Source of the DNA: Oxalobacteraceae bacterium | GTDB lineage: Bacteria > Pseudomonadota > Gammaproteobacteria > Burkholderiales > Burkholderiaceae_D | Direction of reading: 5' to 3' | Assembly: GCA_013284265.1 (NCBI GenBank) | Contig: JABTBR010000021.1 | Coordinates: forward strand, 1 to 64,000 | DNA: 64,000 nucleotides | Made by a program: the position numbers and the translations under genes | The notes under the pieces: model-generated | What the model saw: the letters and a program-made list of their open reading frames with translations, nothing else | Told to the model about the DNA's origin: nothing | The model's database searches: none | Shown here: positions 50,430 through 57,330 of the stretch, in pieces | Layout of the letters: every line of letters begins with the position of its first letter | Position numbering within the stretch: position 1 is the first letter of the stretch

Positions 50430-50523
50430 GCCCCCTGGCGGGGACGTCACGCCCCCGTCAGCCCGCAACACCGAGCAAGGGTTCGCCCGCAGCTTCACAA
50501 CAAGTCACCTGCGGCTTCACAAC

Positions 50524-50570
50524 GGGGTCAGACCCTGCGGGTCTGACCCCAGCCCTTCGCCCTGGGTTTA
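50524..50570 (-). repeat. Dispersed palindromic repeat, copy 5 (partial)
   Basis: GGGGTCAGACCC with its inverse, then AGCCCTTCGCCCTGGGTTTA. It lacks the left outer arm, and its orientation resembles copies 3 and 4. It is 94 bases after the cpoB stop. Confidence 0.7.
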
Positions 50571-50691: not shown

Positions 50692-50767
50692 GGGTCGTTA
50701 GCTCAGCTGGTAGAGCAGCGGACTTTTAATCCGTTGGTCGCAGGTTCGAATCCCGCACGGCCTACCA
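50692..50767 (+). tRNA. tRNA-Lys (UUU), copy 1
   Basis: 76 nt with encoded CCA, anticodon loop CTTTTAA, T-loop TTCGAAT. Its D-loop and anticodon match known tRNA-Lys. Identical to copies 2 and 3. Confidence 0.98.
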
Positions 50768-50833: not shown

Positions 50834-50909
50834 GGGTCGTTAGCTCAGCTGGTAGAGCAGCGGACTTTTAATCCGTTGGTCGCAGGTTCGAATCCCGCAC
50901 GGCCTACCA
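50834..50909 (+). tRNA. tRNA-Lys (UUU), copy 2
   Basis: Identical 76-nt copy, 66 bases after copy 1 and apparently cotranscribed. The island starts immediately after its CCA end. Confidence 0.98.
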
Positions 50910-50922
50910 AGAATTCTCAGAA

Positions 50923-50955
50923 AAGCCCACGAATTTCGGTTCGTGGGCTTTTTTG
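50923..50955 (+). terminator. Terminator after tRNA-Lys copies
   Basis: AAGCCCACGAA pairs with TTCGTGGGCTT (50923-50950) followed by T-rich sequence. Confidence 0.85.
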
Positions 50956-51005
50956 TTCTCTGGTCCATTTCTGGTCCCTCCTCTCCTATCTCTTCGCATG
51001 TGGCC

Positions 51006-51051
51006 GGTGTAGATTACCATCTGGGGGATACAAGGAGGCGAAATGAAACCA
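51006..51051. repeat. Imperfect direct repeat, left copy
   Basis: The segment GGTGTA...TCTGGGGGATA...GGAGG...AAACC resembles 55196-55242 (about 70% alike by eye). The two flank the hydrolase-HEPN-Shedu block. It may mark an older insertion boundary. Confidence 0.4.
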
Positions 51052-51109
51052 GCGACACGCCCACCTGCGCGAAGCAGACGGTACTGACCGCTCCTTATTG
51101 TCCGCGTAA

Positions 51110-52285
51110 TTACTGCACCGCAACCTTGATCGGATTCTTGGTTTCGCACCTCAGACGATCTGGTAGTGCACCAGCTTGAGGCCTCCCAACTGTCCAAAAT
51201 CCATTTTCATACTTCCAGAGCGGAGCAGGTCTACGGGGTACATTGAGATACAGCAGACTCTTGATATCGATCAAGACGGGAAGCGCCTCCGCGAAATAAG
51301 CATGAGCCGGAATATCATCGGGGACAAGCGATACAACATTATCGATCCCAGGGATAATTACCTGTGGCGAATCGCCGCATCCAACACGGGGATATTGATG
51401 GACGATATCCGATGCATGCACGGCATAGTCATACGGAGAAAGGTAAACGGTAGTATTGCTAGCTACTTTAAGGTAACTTGGTGCCAGCTGTGCGAATAGG
51501 TCACGATCAACGTCCGCCGCTGCCAAAATGACCTGTCCAAACTTCATACGTTGCTGATCCGATACGCTAACAAGACTAGCTGCGACCGTACGGAGGAAAG
51601 CGCGATTTCCCATGCTATGGACAATGACATGAACTTTTCGCGGTCCCGCGCCCTCCATCACGGAACTGAGAAAAGCACGTAAGTAGACTTCGCTAGCGTC
51701 CACTGTTGCCTCATCGACGGTATACTCTTTAATGGAATTACGAGCAGCCCACGAAAAGAGCATCATACTATTTTGTGGTATTTCCAAGTCAGCACCAATT
51801 TGGGCGGCGCGAATGGCGGCGTCATCAAATGAATTATTGAACCCATGGATAAAAACAACGACAAAATCATCCTGTGGATGTCGTTCCGCTTTAATTCCGC
51901 TGCGCATAACCTTCACAAACTGAACAGAACCTGACATTGCTTCAACTCTATTCACATTAAGTCGCGTATCGTTTTGCCATGGCCAAAAGGGGCTTTCTCC
52001 TGTCGATCCGGTTATATGTCCTTTGGGAATCCGAACCCAGACTCGACCATAATTAACTTGTGAATCACGCTGAGATGAATAGTTGCTTCCAGTTGCCTTG
52101 CGAGTGGTACCAAACAAAACAGGGTAAAGGCGATCCTCTGTTGTGGGCTCGGGCGAAACTGTGATGGGTAAACTGGCACGAATTCCCGTAACCATCACCG
52201 CATCTTCACTAGGCTTGAAAATCCCCGCGCAACCCACCATTAGCAAAGAAAAGAATATAACCAATAATTTCCTTACCTCAGACAT
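51110..52285 (-). CDS. Lipoprotein alpha/beta hydrolase (DUF900 type)
   Basis: This 391-aa protein has a lipoprotein signal (LLVIFFSLLMVGCAG; Cys about 19), a VVFIHGFNNSFDDAA oxyanion-type block near 145, and VIVHSMGN, the GXSXG-like nucleophile motif (HSMGN) near 222. It belongs to the DUF900 family of serine hydrolases and is likely envelope-bound. The ATG at 52285 gives a good signal peptide; further upstream is unlikely. Codon use is AT-rich like its neighbours. It is transcribed with the HEPN-like gene (69-base gap). Role in the island unknown. Confidence 0.85.
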   Translation of the reverse strand: MSEVRKLLVIFFSLLMVGCAGIFKPSEDAVMVTGIRASLPITVSPEPTTEDRLYPVLFGTTRKATGSNYSSQRDSQVNYGRVWVRIPKGHITGSTGESPFWPWQNDTRLNVNRVEAMSGSVQFVKVMRSGIKAERHPQDDFVVVFIHGFNNSFDDAAIRAAQIGADLEIPQNSMMLFSWAARNSIKEYTVDEATVDASEVYLRAFLSSVMEGAGPRKVHVIVHSMGNRAFLRTVAASLVSVSDQQRMKFGQVILAAADVDRDLFAQLAPSYLKVASNTTVYLSPYDYAVHASDIVHQYPRVGCGDSPQVIIPGIDNVVSLVPDDIPAHAYFAEALPVLIDIKSLLYLNVPRRPAPLWKYENGFWTVGRPQAGALPDRLRCETKNPIKVAVQ

Positions 52286-52354
52286 GATAGCCCCCAATTT
52301 ATTGACTTCTTTTATTTTCTTTCGCCCCACCAAATAACCCAATAACACTCAGCA

Positions 52355-53785
52355 TTAACTCCAATTAATATGATTCTTTGTGAGCTCCTTATAATTGGAA
52401 TCAATGTGAATCTTATGCAGTATATTTGAATTAGTCTTCAAGTATTTGAGGATTTCTTTAATCCTGTCGCTTATCACATTTTTCTCGACTATATGAATAG
52501 TATTCACCATGTTGTTTTGACAAATCTTATTGTCAAGCATTCCCCGCACCTCATTGGAATGCATGGCTAAGAGCAGCAAGATAACGTTTTGATCACCAAG
52601 CATTGAGAAGAATTTATCATACAATGGCTTACCTGCTGGAGATACTCCCTCGCAATATGGAATCCCTTTACCGACCCTGCAAATCAAAACCGTCTTTATG
52701 ATTTTTTGGGCACGCTCTAGAGGTATATCTTTCTCACTGGCGATATACGATAGGATATGCCGCATGTGCGGTGATTCATTGTAATAGTTATCCCAACTGT
52801 AACGTGCATCTAATAAATTATCAGCATGGCCATCCAATTCGATAATTCTCGACTCCAGCGACTTATATTTATTCCCTCCGCAAAAATCAAAGAACTCACT
52901 ACCTAGCTGATACTTATCATGGTAAAGATTGTTCTTATAACCATCAATTGCCACGCCTAGCTTATACTTGACATCCTCACTTGCCTTGTTCCAGATATGT
53001 GGCGAAACAAGCGAGATATTTTTTCTTACGATTGCATCCGTCTTATCGGATACATAAACACCAAATATACTATTAAGTAGATTATCTGTGTTTTGCAACG
53101 AGAGTTCAGCAAGTGGCTTCTCCATGCTCTTGACAGCAGCTGGATCAAGCACTATTGCAGATTTCTTGAGATTATCAATGAATGCACGAATCTGAATTGC
53201 GGACTCAGATGGTTGATCATTCAATACGTCAGATACGCAGGTTTGCAACCAACCTAAGAGCTCAAACGCATTAATTGAATAAGAATTTGGGTGCGATGCG
53301 CCAATATCATTTCGCATCGTCAGAATGTGCATCAATTTTGTGTAGACAATATCGGAAATCAACTCCAGTTTTCGGCAAGTGTTAATAAGAGTATTGTCCT
53401 TTAGCCCCGCCAAATCCTCTTCGGTTTGATACAAATCTCGGCGAGAACCTCCAGTAGCCGCATCAAAAAACATATCTAGACCATATACTACCGCTTTTTT
53501 CCTTAAGGTTAGTACAACTTCATTCCAAATATAATTAAGTGAAGCGTCGAATAATCCGATAGCTGCGCCAGCGACAAACTTCGAAAGGTAGCGGGCATCT
53601 TGTCGTGTCTTGGGATCAAGCGATTGAACGAAGGCGGGAAGGTTGGCTTCAATCTTCTGGCGCTCAGGTAGAGAAGCAATGATGTTTTCGGTTGGTAGAC
53701 CTAGATATGACAGATACTCTTCGAAGCGCGTGGTATCCGCAGTAGTTAAGGAATTGGATTGCTGCGCAGCAATGGCATTTGACAT
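52355..53785 (-). CDS. HEPN-like protein next to Shedu
   Basis: This 476-aa protein has no family that I recognise with certainty. The clear feature is RNDIGASH (residues 158-165): Arg followed by a polar residue and six residues to His, which is the RX4-6H signature of HEPN RNases. The surrounding helices (VYTKLMHILTM and SYSINAFELLGWL) fit a HEPN bundle. The rest is helical, with no membrane segment. It starts 35 bases after the Shedu gene and has an AGGG ribosome site. It is the most AT-rich gene in the window, suggesting transfer. Likely an RNase toxin or effector cooperating with Shedu; this is inference. Confidence 0.6.
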   Translation of the reverse strand: MSNAIAAQQSNSLTTADTTRFEEYLSYLGLPTENIIASLPERQKIEANLPAFVQSLDPKTRQDARYLSKFVAGAAIGLFDASLNYIWNEVVLTLRKKAVVYGLDMFFDAATGGSRRDLYQTEEDLAGLKDNTLINTCRKLELISDIVYTKLMHILTMRNDIGASHPNSYSINAFELLGWLQTCVSDVLNDQPSESAIQIRAFIDNLKKSAIVLDPAAVKSMEKPLAELSLQNTDNLLNSIFGVYVSDKTDAIVRKNISLVSPHIWNKASEDVKYKLGVAIDGYKNNLYHDKYQLGSEFFDFCGGNKYKSLESRIIELDGHADNLLDARYSWDNYYNESPHMRHILSYIASEKDIPLERAQKIIKTVLICRVGKGIPYCEGVSPAGKPLYDKFFSMLGDQNVILLLLAMHSNEVRGMLDNKICQNNMVNTIHIVEKNVISDRIKEILKYLKTNSNILHKIHIDSNYKELTKNHINWS

Positions 53786-53820
53786 ATTATAGCCCTGTGT
53801 GAAATATTTAAATAATTAAA

Positions 53821-55059
53821 CTAAAAACCAGCTTTAAACTGTTGAATTACATTCTTCAATCGTCGCAATAGATCATCATATGTTACGACATCAACGATAT
53901 TCTTATTTTGTCGGCGATAAACTTCAAAATCTCGCCGCTGGGCATCAGTCATTTCATGGTCACGCCCCATAATAACAATACCGCACGGATTGGTAATCTT
54001 TATTTGCAGCCCTGGCGGTAATCGATCTATATACTTCTTGGTTAGATAGGTTTCCCCAACGCTTCCCCATCGTCCTAGATGGAAGATATATTTCTCAACC
54101 TGCATTATCGAACCTGAAAGTTCTCGTAGTGGAATGTGATTTCCCCTATAAAGTGATTCAGTCATCACGCATTTGCGAAACGGCTGCTTGATTTCAATGA
54201 CATCCACATTCCCCGCAGCATCTACGAGCATAATGTCAATTTGCTTATCTGTATTGTTTCCAACGTCCTTGAGCGGAACCGATTTAAATGCTGCGATGTA
54301 CTTGGAGTTTAATAACCTGACTATCTCCAAAATTTTCTCTTGCCAAACGGGCTCGGTATAGCCGTCTTCAGAACGAAGCATATCTTCCAACTGAGATGAC
54401 AAGAACTCAAACTTCGCAATTTCCGCCTCGCGAAATCGTTGAATGTAACTCACCGACCGAGCTTTGACACGCTTCGCCACGTATTGACGAAGTAATGCTT
54501 CACCGTCAACTTGTGCATCAGTATATTGACGAAGAATCGCGCCAACTCTAGCGATAACATACCGCTTAAGCTCGTAGCCGGTAGGAAACTGCTGGACGAG
54601 CCGCTCATACTCAATAAGAGGAATGGAATCAGGGGCGTTACCACCGATTACAATGCGACTGGGCATCAGCTTTGCAGCCACACCTAGAATCGAAGTCTTC
54701 GCTTCTGTACTAAACCATTTCCAAGTCGGGCTAGCATCCCGTGCAATCAACACAGGCATTCCAACGCGCAAGATCATTGGATCAAATACGAAATAGTTAT
54801 CGACTGCGGTAGCGACTTTAAATCGCATAACACGATCATCCATCCAAGGCAGATCACCGTCGTCAGCCTCGGATCTTGCATCAAGCTCATCCTGATAAAC
54901 TTGCGCAAAATTGGCCTGCGTCAAATGATACGTGCCCTTAATAAAGAGCTCCTCACCTTGGCTGAACTTAGTATGAACCCAAGAGTCATCATCTCTCGGG
55001 CGATAAATCAAGTGAAGCTCATCTCCTAAAGCTTCAAATTCGACAGCCAATTTACTCAT
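53821..55059 (-). CDS. Shedu anti-phage nuclease (SduA, DUF4263)
   Basis: This 412-aa protein has a C-terminal PD-(D/E)xK nuclease domain typical of Shedu. Asp about 275 lies in KQIDIMLVDAAG, and the ExK pair about 288-290 is in VDVIEIKQPF. The preceding helix QEKILEIVRLLNSKYIAAF and the ending INITNPCGIVIMGR-like and DVVTYDDLL parts fit the family. The N-terminal 215 residues are a variable sensor-like region. Shedu proteins block phage as single-gene systems. A TTG three codons upstream could be an alternative start; ATG at 55059 is taken. The HEPN-like gene follows. Confidence 0.85.
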   Translation of the reverse strand: MSKLAVEFEALGDELHLIYRPRDDDSWVHTKFSQGEELFIKGTYHLTQANFAQVYQDELDARSEADDGDLPWMDDRVMRFKVATAVDNYFVFDPMILRVGMPVLIARDASPTWKWFSTEAKTSILGVAAKLMPSRIVIGGNAPDSIPLIEYERLVQQFPTGYELKRYVIARVGAILRQYTDAQVDGEALLRQYVAKRVKARSVSYIQRFREAEIAKFEFLSSQLEDMLRSEDGYTEPVWQEKILEIVRLLNSKYIAAFKSVPLKDVGNNTDKQIDIMLVDAAGNVDVIEIKQPFRKCVMTESLYRGNHIPLRELSGSIMQVEKYIFHLGRWGSVGETYLTKKYIDRLPPGLQIKITNPCGIVIMGRDHEMTDAQRRDFEVYRRQNKNIVDVVTYDDLLRRLKNVIQQFKAGF

Positions 55060-55467
55060 TTCAGTCAATTAGTGAGAGAGTTCGATCATTAATGACAATG
55101 GAGAGCGGCCCACCGATATTGGCACCGCCCTTTCTGAGGATAGCACTCTTGCCAATTCGAAATACTCACAGATTGTCACACCACGCCCTTGCTATTGGTG
55201 TACGTCGTTCTCTGGGGGATATAGGGAGCGGGAATAAAACCGACTGCCGCTCTGTCGAGGCTTTGTTCTATATGGGGCTCTATGCCGTTTCCAGTGGAAA
55301 TTGACTTTAGACCGCGGCCAGCGCGGCCAGGGTCTGGTCTGGTCTGGCATTCGGACACGATCTCATCCGAACCTACAACGTAAAGCGCGAGGTCATTGAG
55401 TTGCTTCAAGTCCACATGCTCCGCTCCAGCATACTCTCGTCGGACACCATTCCCAACGGAGCCGGCC
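55060..55467. other. Non-coding space with degenerate repeat
   Basis: About 400 bases between the divergent Shedu and glycine-zipper genes. It holds the right copy of the imperfect direct repeat (55196-55242) and fragments that do not form a convincing gene. Divergent promoters for both sides must lie here. Confidence 0.6.
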
Positions 55468-56169
55468 ATGCGTACCACCCCAGACAACGAACTCGCATTC
55501 GAAAACGCGATCAAATCACTAGAAGCAACGACCGCAAGCCTAGGCGTGCACTTGGAAGTTGACTCCGCCGCCCGCCGAACGTATGCCCGCGAAGTGGCTA
55601 CCATGTCAGCTAAGCTGCGGTCAGATGTCGCCAATGGGCGTCTGAGTTGGGCTCAGGCGGCAAAAGAAGCGCAAATGACTCGCAATGCGGTCATGGAAAT
55701 AATAAGGTCCCGTAGCACGCCGATTGGACGAGCGCTAGCGCAAAAATTGAAATTGACCGGTTATACTTTTAACGAGCTCATTGCTGGCAAAACACTGCAG
55801 CTGTTCGGTAGCCACGCCATATTTGAAAAACTCAGCAGTCTGCAGCAGAATAAAATATTTGCAGCCATCGTCACGTCGGCTGGCAAAGCAAATCCAAAGG
55901 TTTCCGCCAGCCTGACTCGTCTTTCGTTCGTCGGAAGAGGTCTAATTTTCATCTCAGTCGCGCTATCCACTTACCATATTGTTACAGCGAAAAACAAAGT
56001 CAAAGCTACCAAGCGAGAACTGACAACCATTGGCGCCGGAATTGGCGGCAGTATTGCCGCCGGAGCATTGGCTGGCCTGGCCTGCGGTCCGGCAGCACCG
56101 GTTTGCGTGACAGTGGGATCCTTTGTCGGAGGTGCAGTTGCTGCCTTCGGTGCAGGGTATATTTGGTAA
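55468..56169 (+). CDS. Glycine-zipper membrane protein, toxin-like
   Basis: This 233-aa protein has a helical N-terminal half (about 1-150), including a helix-turn-helix-like stretch AKEAQMTRNAVMEIIRS, one hydrophobic helix (about 155-172) and a C-terminal glycine-zipper region (about 185-233; GAGIGGSIAAGALAGLACG). Such tails are seen in pore-forming effector toxins and their precursors. There is no secretion signal. It starts with a GGAG site. A small gene follows after 8 bases. I do not recognise the family; toxin function is inferred from the tail and the pair layout. Confidence 0.5.
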   Translation: MRTTPDNELAFENAIKSLEATTASLGVHLEVDSAARRTYAREVATMSAKLRSDVANGRLSWAQAAKEAQMTRNAVMEIIRSRSTPIGRALAQKLKLTGYTFNELIAGKTLQLFGSHAIFEKLSSLQQNKIFAAIVTSAGKANPKVSASLTRLSFVGRGLIFISVALSTYHIVTAKNKVKATKRELTTIGAGIGGSIAAGALAGLACGPAAPVCVTVGSFVGGAVAAFGAGYIW

Positions 56170-56177
56170 GGAAAATC

Positions 56178-56651
56178 ATGCGTCTCCTTTCGCCCTCAGA
56201 GTTTTCCATCCGCCTATCGCAACCCTATACCAGCAAGAATTTGGCTACGTCTGAGATTCTGTTCGATGACACCCCTACCGGCATTATTTTGACGGGACAG
56301 GTATTGGAGGCCGCGCTTGAATGGTGCGACTACACCGTTGCATTTTTGACCGACGATATCATTCACGAGGATATGCTGAGGATCTATATGTTCAATGCGA
56401 ACCATCAAGTAATTGATTCCGCCGTTCTCGGTGCGATGTATTCAACCGGCGTATTCCGCGACCTCAACCTGATCGAGCCAAATACGCTCACCTTCACATT
56501 CATCGGTGGCATTACTTGGCGGCTGATCCTGCTTCCCGAGGCGGAGTTTTCCCTGCCGTTCATTTCAGATCCACGAGGGGTAAGTAGGCCGCTCAAGTTT
56601 TTCAGACGGTTCAGACTGCTGGGCAAGCCACTGCCGGAAACCAGCAGATAA
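56178..56651 (+). CDS. Small partner protein, immunity-like
   Basis: This 157-aa soluble protein is preceded by TAAGGA 8 bases after the glycine-zipper gene. It is mostly beta-rich by eye with a basic end (LKFFRRFRLLGK). No recognised domain. The short gap and common direction suggest joint translation with the upstream gene, as in toxin-immunity pairs. It could equally be an unrelated regulator. Confidence 0.5.
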   Translation: MRLLSPSEFSIRLSQPYTSKNLATSEILFDDTPTGIILTGQVLEAALEWCDYTVAFLTDDIIHEDMLRIYMFNANHQVIDSAVLGAMYSTGVFRDLNLIEPNTLTFTFIGGITWRLILLPEAEFSLPFISDPRGVSRPLKFFRRFRLLGKPLPETSR

Positions 56652-56785
56652 ATTCCGTTCGTAGCGACGCTACTCATCTGTGCGGCATCCAACGCGCCTG
56701 CTGATGGTCTCAACAAGCCGCATTCACTCCACCTCTTGCGAACCAAACATTTGCAACGCGTGCTTCGATTAGTACGATCAAGAAA

Positions 56786-57202
56786 TTGACATCAAGCAGG
56801 CACGGCAGCTATACCATCGACACCACCATCGCCCCCTATACCTCCTTGCACGCCTACAAGGGGCGCGCGCTGAACGGTATCTGGGTCACGGCGCCCTATC
56901 TGCACAACGGCTCGGTGCCAACCTTGTACGACCTGCTGTTGCCGGCCGCGTGCCCGCCCGACGACAAGAAGGCCGAGTGCCGGCCAGCCACCTTCCAGAT
57001 CGGATCGCGCGAGTTCGATCCCGTCAAGGTGGGAATGCGGAGCGAGTACTACGCCGGCTTCACCTATAACACCCGCTTGCCAGGCAACAGCAACGCCGGC
57101 CACGAGTACGGCACCGCCGCCATCGTCAAAGACGGTAAAACCGTGCCGCCACTGAGCAAAGAAGACCGCCCCGATCTGCTCGACTATCTGAAAGCGCAAT
57201 AA
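56786..57202 (+). pseudogene. Truncated di-haem cytochrome c peroxidase-like gene
   Basis: The reading frame preserves about 130 C-terminal residues of a di-haem cytochrome family (LHAYKGRALNGIWVTAPYLH, SVPTLYDLL, GSREFDPVKVG, GFTYNTRLPGNSNAGHEYGT). No CxxCH haem site or signal peptide is present and the N-terminal bulk is missing. The only start is a weak TTG. It reads like the remains of an ancestral gene cut by insertion of the island. Confidence 0.75.
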
Positions 57203-57214
57203 GGTTAATTGGCC

Positions 57215-57243
57215 TTGCTAGACAGGGTCGAGGCCAGTATAAT
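57215..57243 (+). promoter_or_regulatory. Promoter of tRNA-Lys copy 3
   Basis: TTGCTA (57215-57220) and TATAAT (57238-57243) with a 17-base spacer, 11 bases before the tRNA. The third tRNA has its own promoter. Confidence 0.75.
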
Positions 57244-57254
57244 CGCGGCCCTTC

Positions 57255-57330
57255 GGGTCGTTAGCTCAGCTGGTAGAGCAGCGGACTTTTAATCCGTTGG
57301 TCGCAGGTTCGAATCCCGCACGGCCTACCA
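57255..57330 (+). tRNA. tRNA-Lys (UUU), copy 3
   Basis: 76 nt, identical to copies 1 and 2, with its own upstream promoter. It marks the right edge of the island. Confidence 0.98.

Follow-up and report, generated by a model that had tools for sequence, protein, structure and literature searches.

Two genes side by side on the minus strand of the window (the whole stretch of 64,000 nucleotides that was analysed) encode a Shedu nuclease and a 476-aa protein with a conserved HEPN motif. The reading that we favour, and regard as reasonably likely, is that they are two separately acquired, self-contained genes within an island bounded by tRNA-Lys genes, the second encoding a stand-alone HEPN sensor-effector that would act by abortive infection. 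An earlier note on this DNA had proposed that the two genes form one new defence system; counts of neighbouring genes and of co-occurrence led us to give up this interpretation as the leading one. With the combined system not borne out, the remaining interest is the second gene, which opens an uncharacterised and widespread HEPN family that Pfam, NCBIfam and PADLOC (2023) models do not recognise, that keeps its motif at about 20% identity, and that is carried on plasmids and in viral contigs. If this is a true RNase defence, it would be widespread, still without a name, and directly testable in laboratory E. coli.

Two adjacent genes in a tRNA-Lys-bounded island

The AT-rich island (50910–57254, unstranded) is flanked by tRNA-Lys copies, with two genes on one side (50692–50767 and 50834–50909) and a further copy, identical across the 76-base gene, on the other (57255–57330). 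The GC content is 0.41–0.45 in 2-kb windows from 51 to 55 kb, and is 0.44 in the SduA gene and 0.40 in the 476-aa gene, versus 0.58–0.71 in windows of the same size over the first 51 kb, in agreement with the earlier description of the 476-aa gene as AT-rich and of both genes as transferred. A relative in the genus (G721) has a block resembling 47.7–50.9 kb of the window, with two tRNA-Lys genes at its end; a further tRNA-Lys gene, lying about 25 kb on, has the same hydrolase-type gene beside it as its counterpart in the window. These landmarks thus enclose about 25 kb of different content in G721, so that the interval between the tRNA-Lys genes is variable. A search of the window's own genome for tyrosine integrases (PF00589) gave no match on the window's contig.

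The SduA gene (53821–55068, minus strand) is followed by the gene of the 476-aa protein (52355–53785, minus strand), confirming the arrangement given in the earlier note. The gap from the SduA stop to the ATG of the HEPN gene is 35 bases long (53786–53820, minus strand), with AGGG upstream of the ATG and no terminator-like sites listed within it. Being close and co-directional, the two genes could be cotranscribed and functionally coupled in the window's genome.

The first gene encodes a Shedu nuclease

By every sequence feature tested, the product of the first gene is assigned to Shedu. It matches the SduA model of PADLOC at 1.9e-141 over residues 9–413, and the profile search for DUF4263 that had been proposed returned the SduA_C (DUF4263) domain of Pfam at 3.4e-33, with 115.5 bits versus a cut-off of 27. 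The alignment with the solved Shedu effector (PDB 8ps4; 3.2e-69) covers query residues 78–412 and places D278, E292 and K294, the putative PD-(D/E)xK residues, on D, E and K of 8ps4. These numbers count from TTG 55068, the start of the listed ORF (415 aa); ATG 55059 (412 aa) is an equally plausible start because the 78%-identical SduA relative also has M at that position, and counted from there the residues become D275, E289 and K291. The earlier assignment of D275 therefore stands in the second numbering, while E288 and K290 were each placed one residue too low.

By comparison with the Shedu form of 8ps4/8ps5, with which it shares the SduA_C nuclease domain over the aligned residues, the window's SduA shows no notable difference, and its HEPN neighbour is a local arrangement. 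EcSduA is described as a homotetramer whose N-terminal clamp binds DNA ends and which nicks at a fixed distance (PMC12904381), and the window's SduA may act likewise, as a DNA-end-sensing tetramer that protects against phage. A further Shedu relative, on a Methylomonas plasmid (L121:443-8719), lies behind another PDDEXK nuclease gene within a BREX-1 operon, between pglX and pglZ.

The 476-aa protein carries a conserved HEPN motif

The 476-aa protein itself has no significant match in Pfam, NCBIfam or PADLOC (2023), and when 28 family members were compared with the same collections, each model was matched by at most two members, in a scattered and weak manner (best E 0.001). The sole catalogued family found here to contain the protein is phrog_27609 (function unknown; 4.2e-111, residues 41–454). 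The protein consists of an N-terminal region (residues 18–193; 53207–53734, minus strand), in which the HEPN-fold part spans approximately residues 63–193, and a C-terminal part (residues 193–476; 52358–53209, minus strand) predicted as an ARM/HEAT-like helical repeat.

The stretch R158-N-D-I-G-A-S-H165 (53291–53314, minus strand) fits the Rx4-6H motif of HEPN proteins, and the earlier note had numbered R158 and H165 correctly. R158, N159 and H165 are invariant in 28/28 rows of alignment A1 and in 30/30 rows of alignment A3, at identities down to about 19%, and N333, E337 and G380 of the C-terminal part are invariant in both. A1 omits three distant rows (L014–L016) in which the motif is absent; before their removal, the R and H of the motif were present in 28 of 31 rows. 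The family alignment also omits ORFs shorter than 380 aa (the G014 pieces and the L008 fragment) and the duplicate L019, and A3 is a subset of the loci from which the near-duplicates L038, L043, L044 and L054 were left out. Judged from these alignments, the RNDIGASH motif is far beyond chance. In a distant subfamily (L097, L098 and L099), I and D stand in place of the motif's R and H, and these members are perhaps inactive HEPN proteins.

Foldseek searches with the whole 476-aa protein returned nothing below 0.001 in PDB or BFVD, and the PDB matches were mostly helical repeats. Because helical repeats dominated these matches, the N-terminal region was folded alone. The isolated N-terminal model gave no Foldseek E value below 1; a second-look alignment brought HEPN-superfamily matches, with PDB entries 1wwp, 2jpu/2q00, 1jog, 3brj, 3c8g and 6kcr, which we take to be HEPN proteins. 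In the predicted structure, the N-terminal part adopts a HEPN helical bundle, with R158 inside helix 145–163 and H165 just past the end of this helix. Motif conservation and predicted fold support the identification of the 476-aa protein as a HEPN protein, so that this part of the earlier proposal is upheld; the profile match that it had sought was not found in Pfam, NCBIfam or PADLOC.

The HEPN family is spread on mobile elements

Homologues occur in 76 plasmid records (E up to 0.1), 48 of which are predicted conjugative, at 26 loci in viral contigs and at 8 loci in a one-genome-per-species set. Counting the window's own genome, a homologue is present in 8 of 294 family genomes and in 5 of 398 phylum genomes; the window's genome has one copy. 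The family range found comprises Pseudomonadota, Bacillota, Actinomycetota and Elusimicrobia, together with plasmids of E. coli, Klebsiella and Shigella, and three queries of the HEPN family detected no homologue in the phage collection. A copy at ≥95% DNA identity is present in 50 of 5426 complete E. coli genomes, labelled 'hypothetical protein' in 10 of the 10 matches listed.

The closest relatives of the window's protein, 70–72% identical, are encoded on plasmids of Escherichia, Klebsiella, Shigella, Enterobacter and Nitrosomonas and also in viral contigs. By comparison, the best full-length relative inside its own family is 49% identical, and a broken copy is 57% identical over residues 21–229. 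That the nearest relatives reside on plasmids and in viral contigs, as against 49% in the own family, is a clear sign of horizontal transfer, and a foreign origin is supported for both genes. A further genome of the same bacterial family carries a HEPN-family gene (L088, G014:C12:43089-44457) that is split over frames and contains internal stops.

Within 5 kb of the HEPN gene, no constant partner was found across 42 clusters. Only two ORF groups are common to more than four clusters: an integrase-type group in 7 (its L018 member is annotated as a site-specific integrase) and a second, in 5, with a member annotated as a DDE integrase/transposase. Among 13 annotated plasmid neighbourhoods, two of which are nearly the same (the 71%-identical copies between DUF2254 and an integrase gene), 7 contain a defence-type gene by annotation or Pfam and 6 do not. 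The defence-type genes comprise a type ISP domain, BseRI with RES, HerA, AbiJ with Abi_C, a restriction subunit S, NB-ARC, and Ppl with a KAP NTPase, giving an impression of defence-gene enrichment around the HEPN family. PADLOC models (E up to 1e-10) were compared with 143 neighbour ORFs, taken as up to two per side at 41 loci; 84 models were matched, each by at most 4 ORFs, and 14 of the 25 models listed were RmrA models overlapping on the same genes. Overall, the gene is distributed like stand-alone cargo of mobile elements and defence islands. In 4 clusters (L039, L026, L047 and L090), related HTH-type genes also lie no more than 5 kb from the HEPN-family gene; these HTH-type genes are probably the 4 of 143 neighbour ORFs that carry the PADLOC label RmrA, and the gene adjoining that of L039 is labelled RmrT.

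This setting bears on an alternative that we consider possible, though much less likely than the favoured reading, namely that the HEPN protein chiefly serves the maintenance or regulation of mobile elements, as a toxin-like stabiliser or anti-competitor factor, and is not an anti-phage defence. Its placement on plasmids and in prophages, the peptidase M78 domains in 5 of the 143 neighbour ORFs and the lack of a recognising PADLOC model are consistent with such a role, against which stand the absence of a constant antitoxin-like neighbour across the 42 clusters and the long C-terminal part with its invariant residues.

Shedu and the HEPN family are rarely found together

The earlier note had set adjacency of the pair in other genomes as the test by which a joint system might fall, and this test came out against the pair. 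In a joint system, Shedu would sense and cut DNA, the HEPN protein would add RNA cleavage or guard Shedu, and both would be needed. The 35-base spacing, the shared strand and the AT-richness of both genes are in keeping with this scheme, as is a single tight run in a Bacteriovoracaceae MAG (L001:5962-9384), in which a HEPN-family gene, a 388-aa gene and a 271-aa SduA_C gene follow each other on the same strand, 1 and 5 bases apart. This is the one case among 41 other HEPN clusters (71 loci besides the window's own) with a nearby Pfam-confirmed SduA_C gene (4.5e-22), and there the gene is not adjacent and is of a short form, without the long N-terminal part, behind another gene. The 388-aa middle gene has no Pfam match and no relatives among viral contigs or plasmids. 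The flanks examined on the HEPN side extend at least 6 kb at many loci and are shorter at others, down to none on one side. Only Pfam-confirmed SduA matches were counted because our own SduA profile holds at least one wrong row (L086, an opposite-strand ORF). A candidate neighbour at L023 matched this profile at 1.4e-5 and was rejected, its Pfam domains being HATPase and HSDR_N, not SduA_C.

From the SduA side, none of 33 other SduA loci has a HEPN-family match (E up to 10; flanks mostly 1.5 kb). These loci represent 31 places, two of them given twice, with 3 below the Pfam cut-off, and include four long plasmid relatives, one viral-contig locus and two loci from the order; four of the five plasmid relatives covering at least 80% of the query were examined. 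The closest SduA (G187, same family, 78% identical) is followed downstream by a transposase pair that looks like IS21, and about 7 kb of sequence on that side is free of the HEPN gene. Among the 294 genomes of the family, SduA_C is present in 24 (21 above the cut-off) and the HEPN protein in 8, and within the matches listed only the window's genome has both, a co-occurrence at chance level (1 observed vs 0.65 expected). Likewise, the 71%-identical HEPN copies on enterobacterial plasmids have no Shedu nearby and sit, in both records examined, between DUF2254 and an integrase gene. No report of a Shedu–HEPN pair or of the 476-aa family appeared among the matches listed from the open-licence PMC literature. 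One combined Shedu–HEPN system is thus not supported by these counts and seems to us improbable; as the HEPN family is nearly always without Shedu in the genomes examined, the two genes look like two separate defences, not one new system.

Comparison with known HEPN systems

Tha of S. aureus prophages is likewise described as a single-protein HEPN RNase effector on mobile elements, with a non-HEPN part lacking a recognised domain. It is set apart by its architecture, with 301 aa and a C-terminal HEPN domain (184–296), compared to 476 aa and an N-terminal HEPN domain in the window's protein (PMC11087260). A relationship with Tha was rejected on this difference and on the lack of any match in the phage collection for three family queries. 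The pEK499_p136 family (PF18736) is a HEPN family named for an E. coli resistance plasmid whose record has a 501-base HEPN gene, and some of its members are located with R-M and Pgl genes (PMC3710099). Identity with this family was rejected: PF18736 had no match in the window's genome even at E 10, and is not one of the 18 families to which any of the 28 members gave a match at E up to 0.1. AbiJ and Abi_C are HEPN proteins of the abortive-infection kind, as is proposed for the 476-aa protein. AbiJ_NTD3 with Abi_C adjoins family member L027, and 1 of 28 members weakly matches Abi_C (0.052), whereas in these proteins HEPN lies at the other end, and no AbiJ N-terminal domain was found in the window's protein. 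A HEPN-MNT toxin–antitoxin pair was rejected for want of an adjacent minimal nucleotidyltransferase gene, the neighbours being SduA_C and DUF900.

A proposed mode of action

In the reading that we favour, the first gene provides a Shedu nuclease of the E. coli SduA kind, published as sensing and cutting DNA ends. The second would probably provide a stand-alone HEPN RNase acting through abortive infection. Its N-terminal HEPN domain is expected to dimerise and to be a ribonuclease with R158 and H165 as the catalytic pair; the helical-repeat C-terminal part would hold HEPN inactive until some infection product is recognised, and the released HEPN would cleave RNA and stop growth. By analogy with Tha, a HEPN ribonuclease checked by a helical-repeat sensor and released on infection is the best-supported mechanism. 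The analysis shows that the protein belongs to the family, that its motif is conserved, that a HEPN fold is predicted, that the family has spread on mobile elements and that, at the loci examined, it lacks a constant neighbour; from these we infer RNase activity, dimer, C-terminal sensing, defence role, trigger, protection and action independent of Shedu. A further HEPN defence would be unsurprising, since remote HEPN similarity is recorded for 6 of 21 new defence systems in PMC9519451.

A bolder version, to which we give only a small chance, is that this broadly spread single-protein HEPN RNase family with a helical-repeat sensor constitutes an unrecognised abortive-infection system, and that in the window's genome it has come to be cotranscribed with Shedu, DNA and RNA cutting then being layered. 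That the HEPN-like fold binds nucleic acid or protein without RNA cleavage, as some HEPN-fold matches such as the presumably non-enzymatic MtlR and the motif-less L097–L099 might suggest, is very unlikely given that R, N and H of the Rx4-6H motif are kept in 40 of 42 homologue clusters at identities to about 19%, as an active site would be.

Other features of the island

A DUF900 alpha/beta hydrolase gene (51113–52348, minus strand; Pfam 3.1e-35), with a lipoprotein-like N-terminus by eye, starts 6 bases past the HEPN gene, provided that the listed GTG start is correct, and could be a third cotranscribed gene. On the plus strand, 55396–56651 encodes a 257-aa protein with a glycine-rich hydrophobic C-terminus and no significant Pfam match, followed by a small gene; our impression from the sequence is of a possible toxin–immunity pair. 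At the island edge, a RoxA-like cytochrome c gene (56786–57202, plus strand; Pfam 7.7e-16) seems to be reduced to its C-terminal part. A GGGTCTGACCCC-type palindromic stretch lies at about 50523–50569, and short matches to it number in the dozens in the related genome G695.
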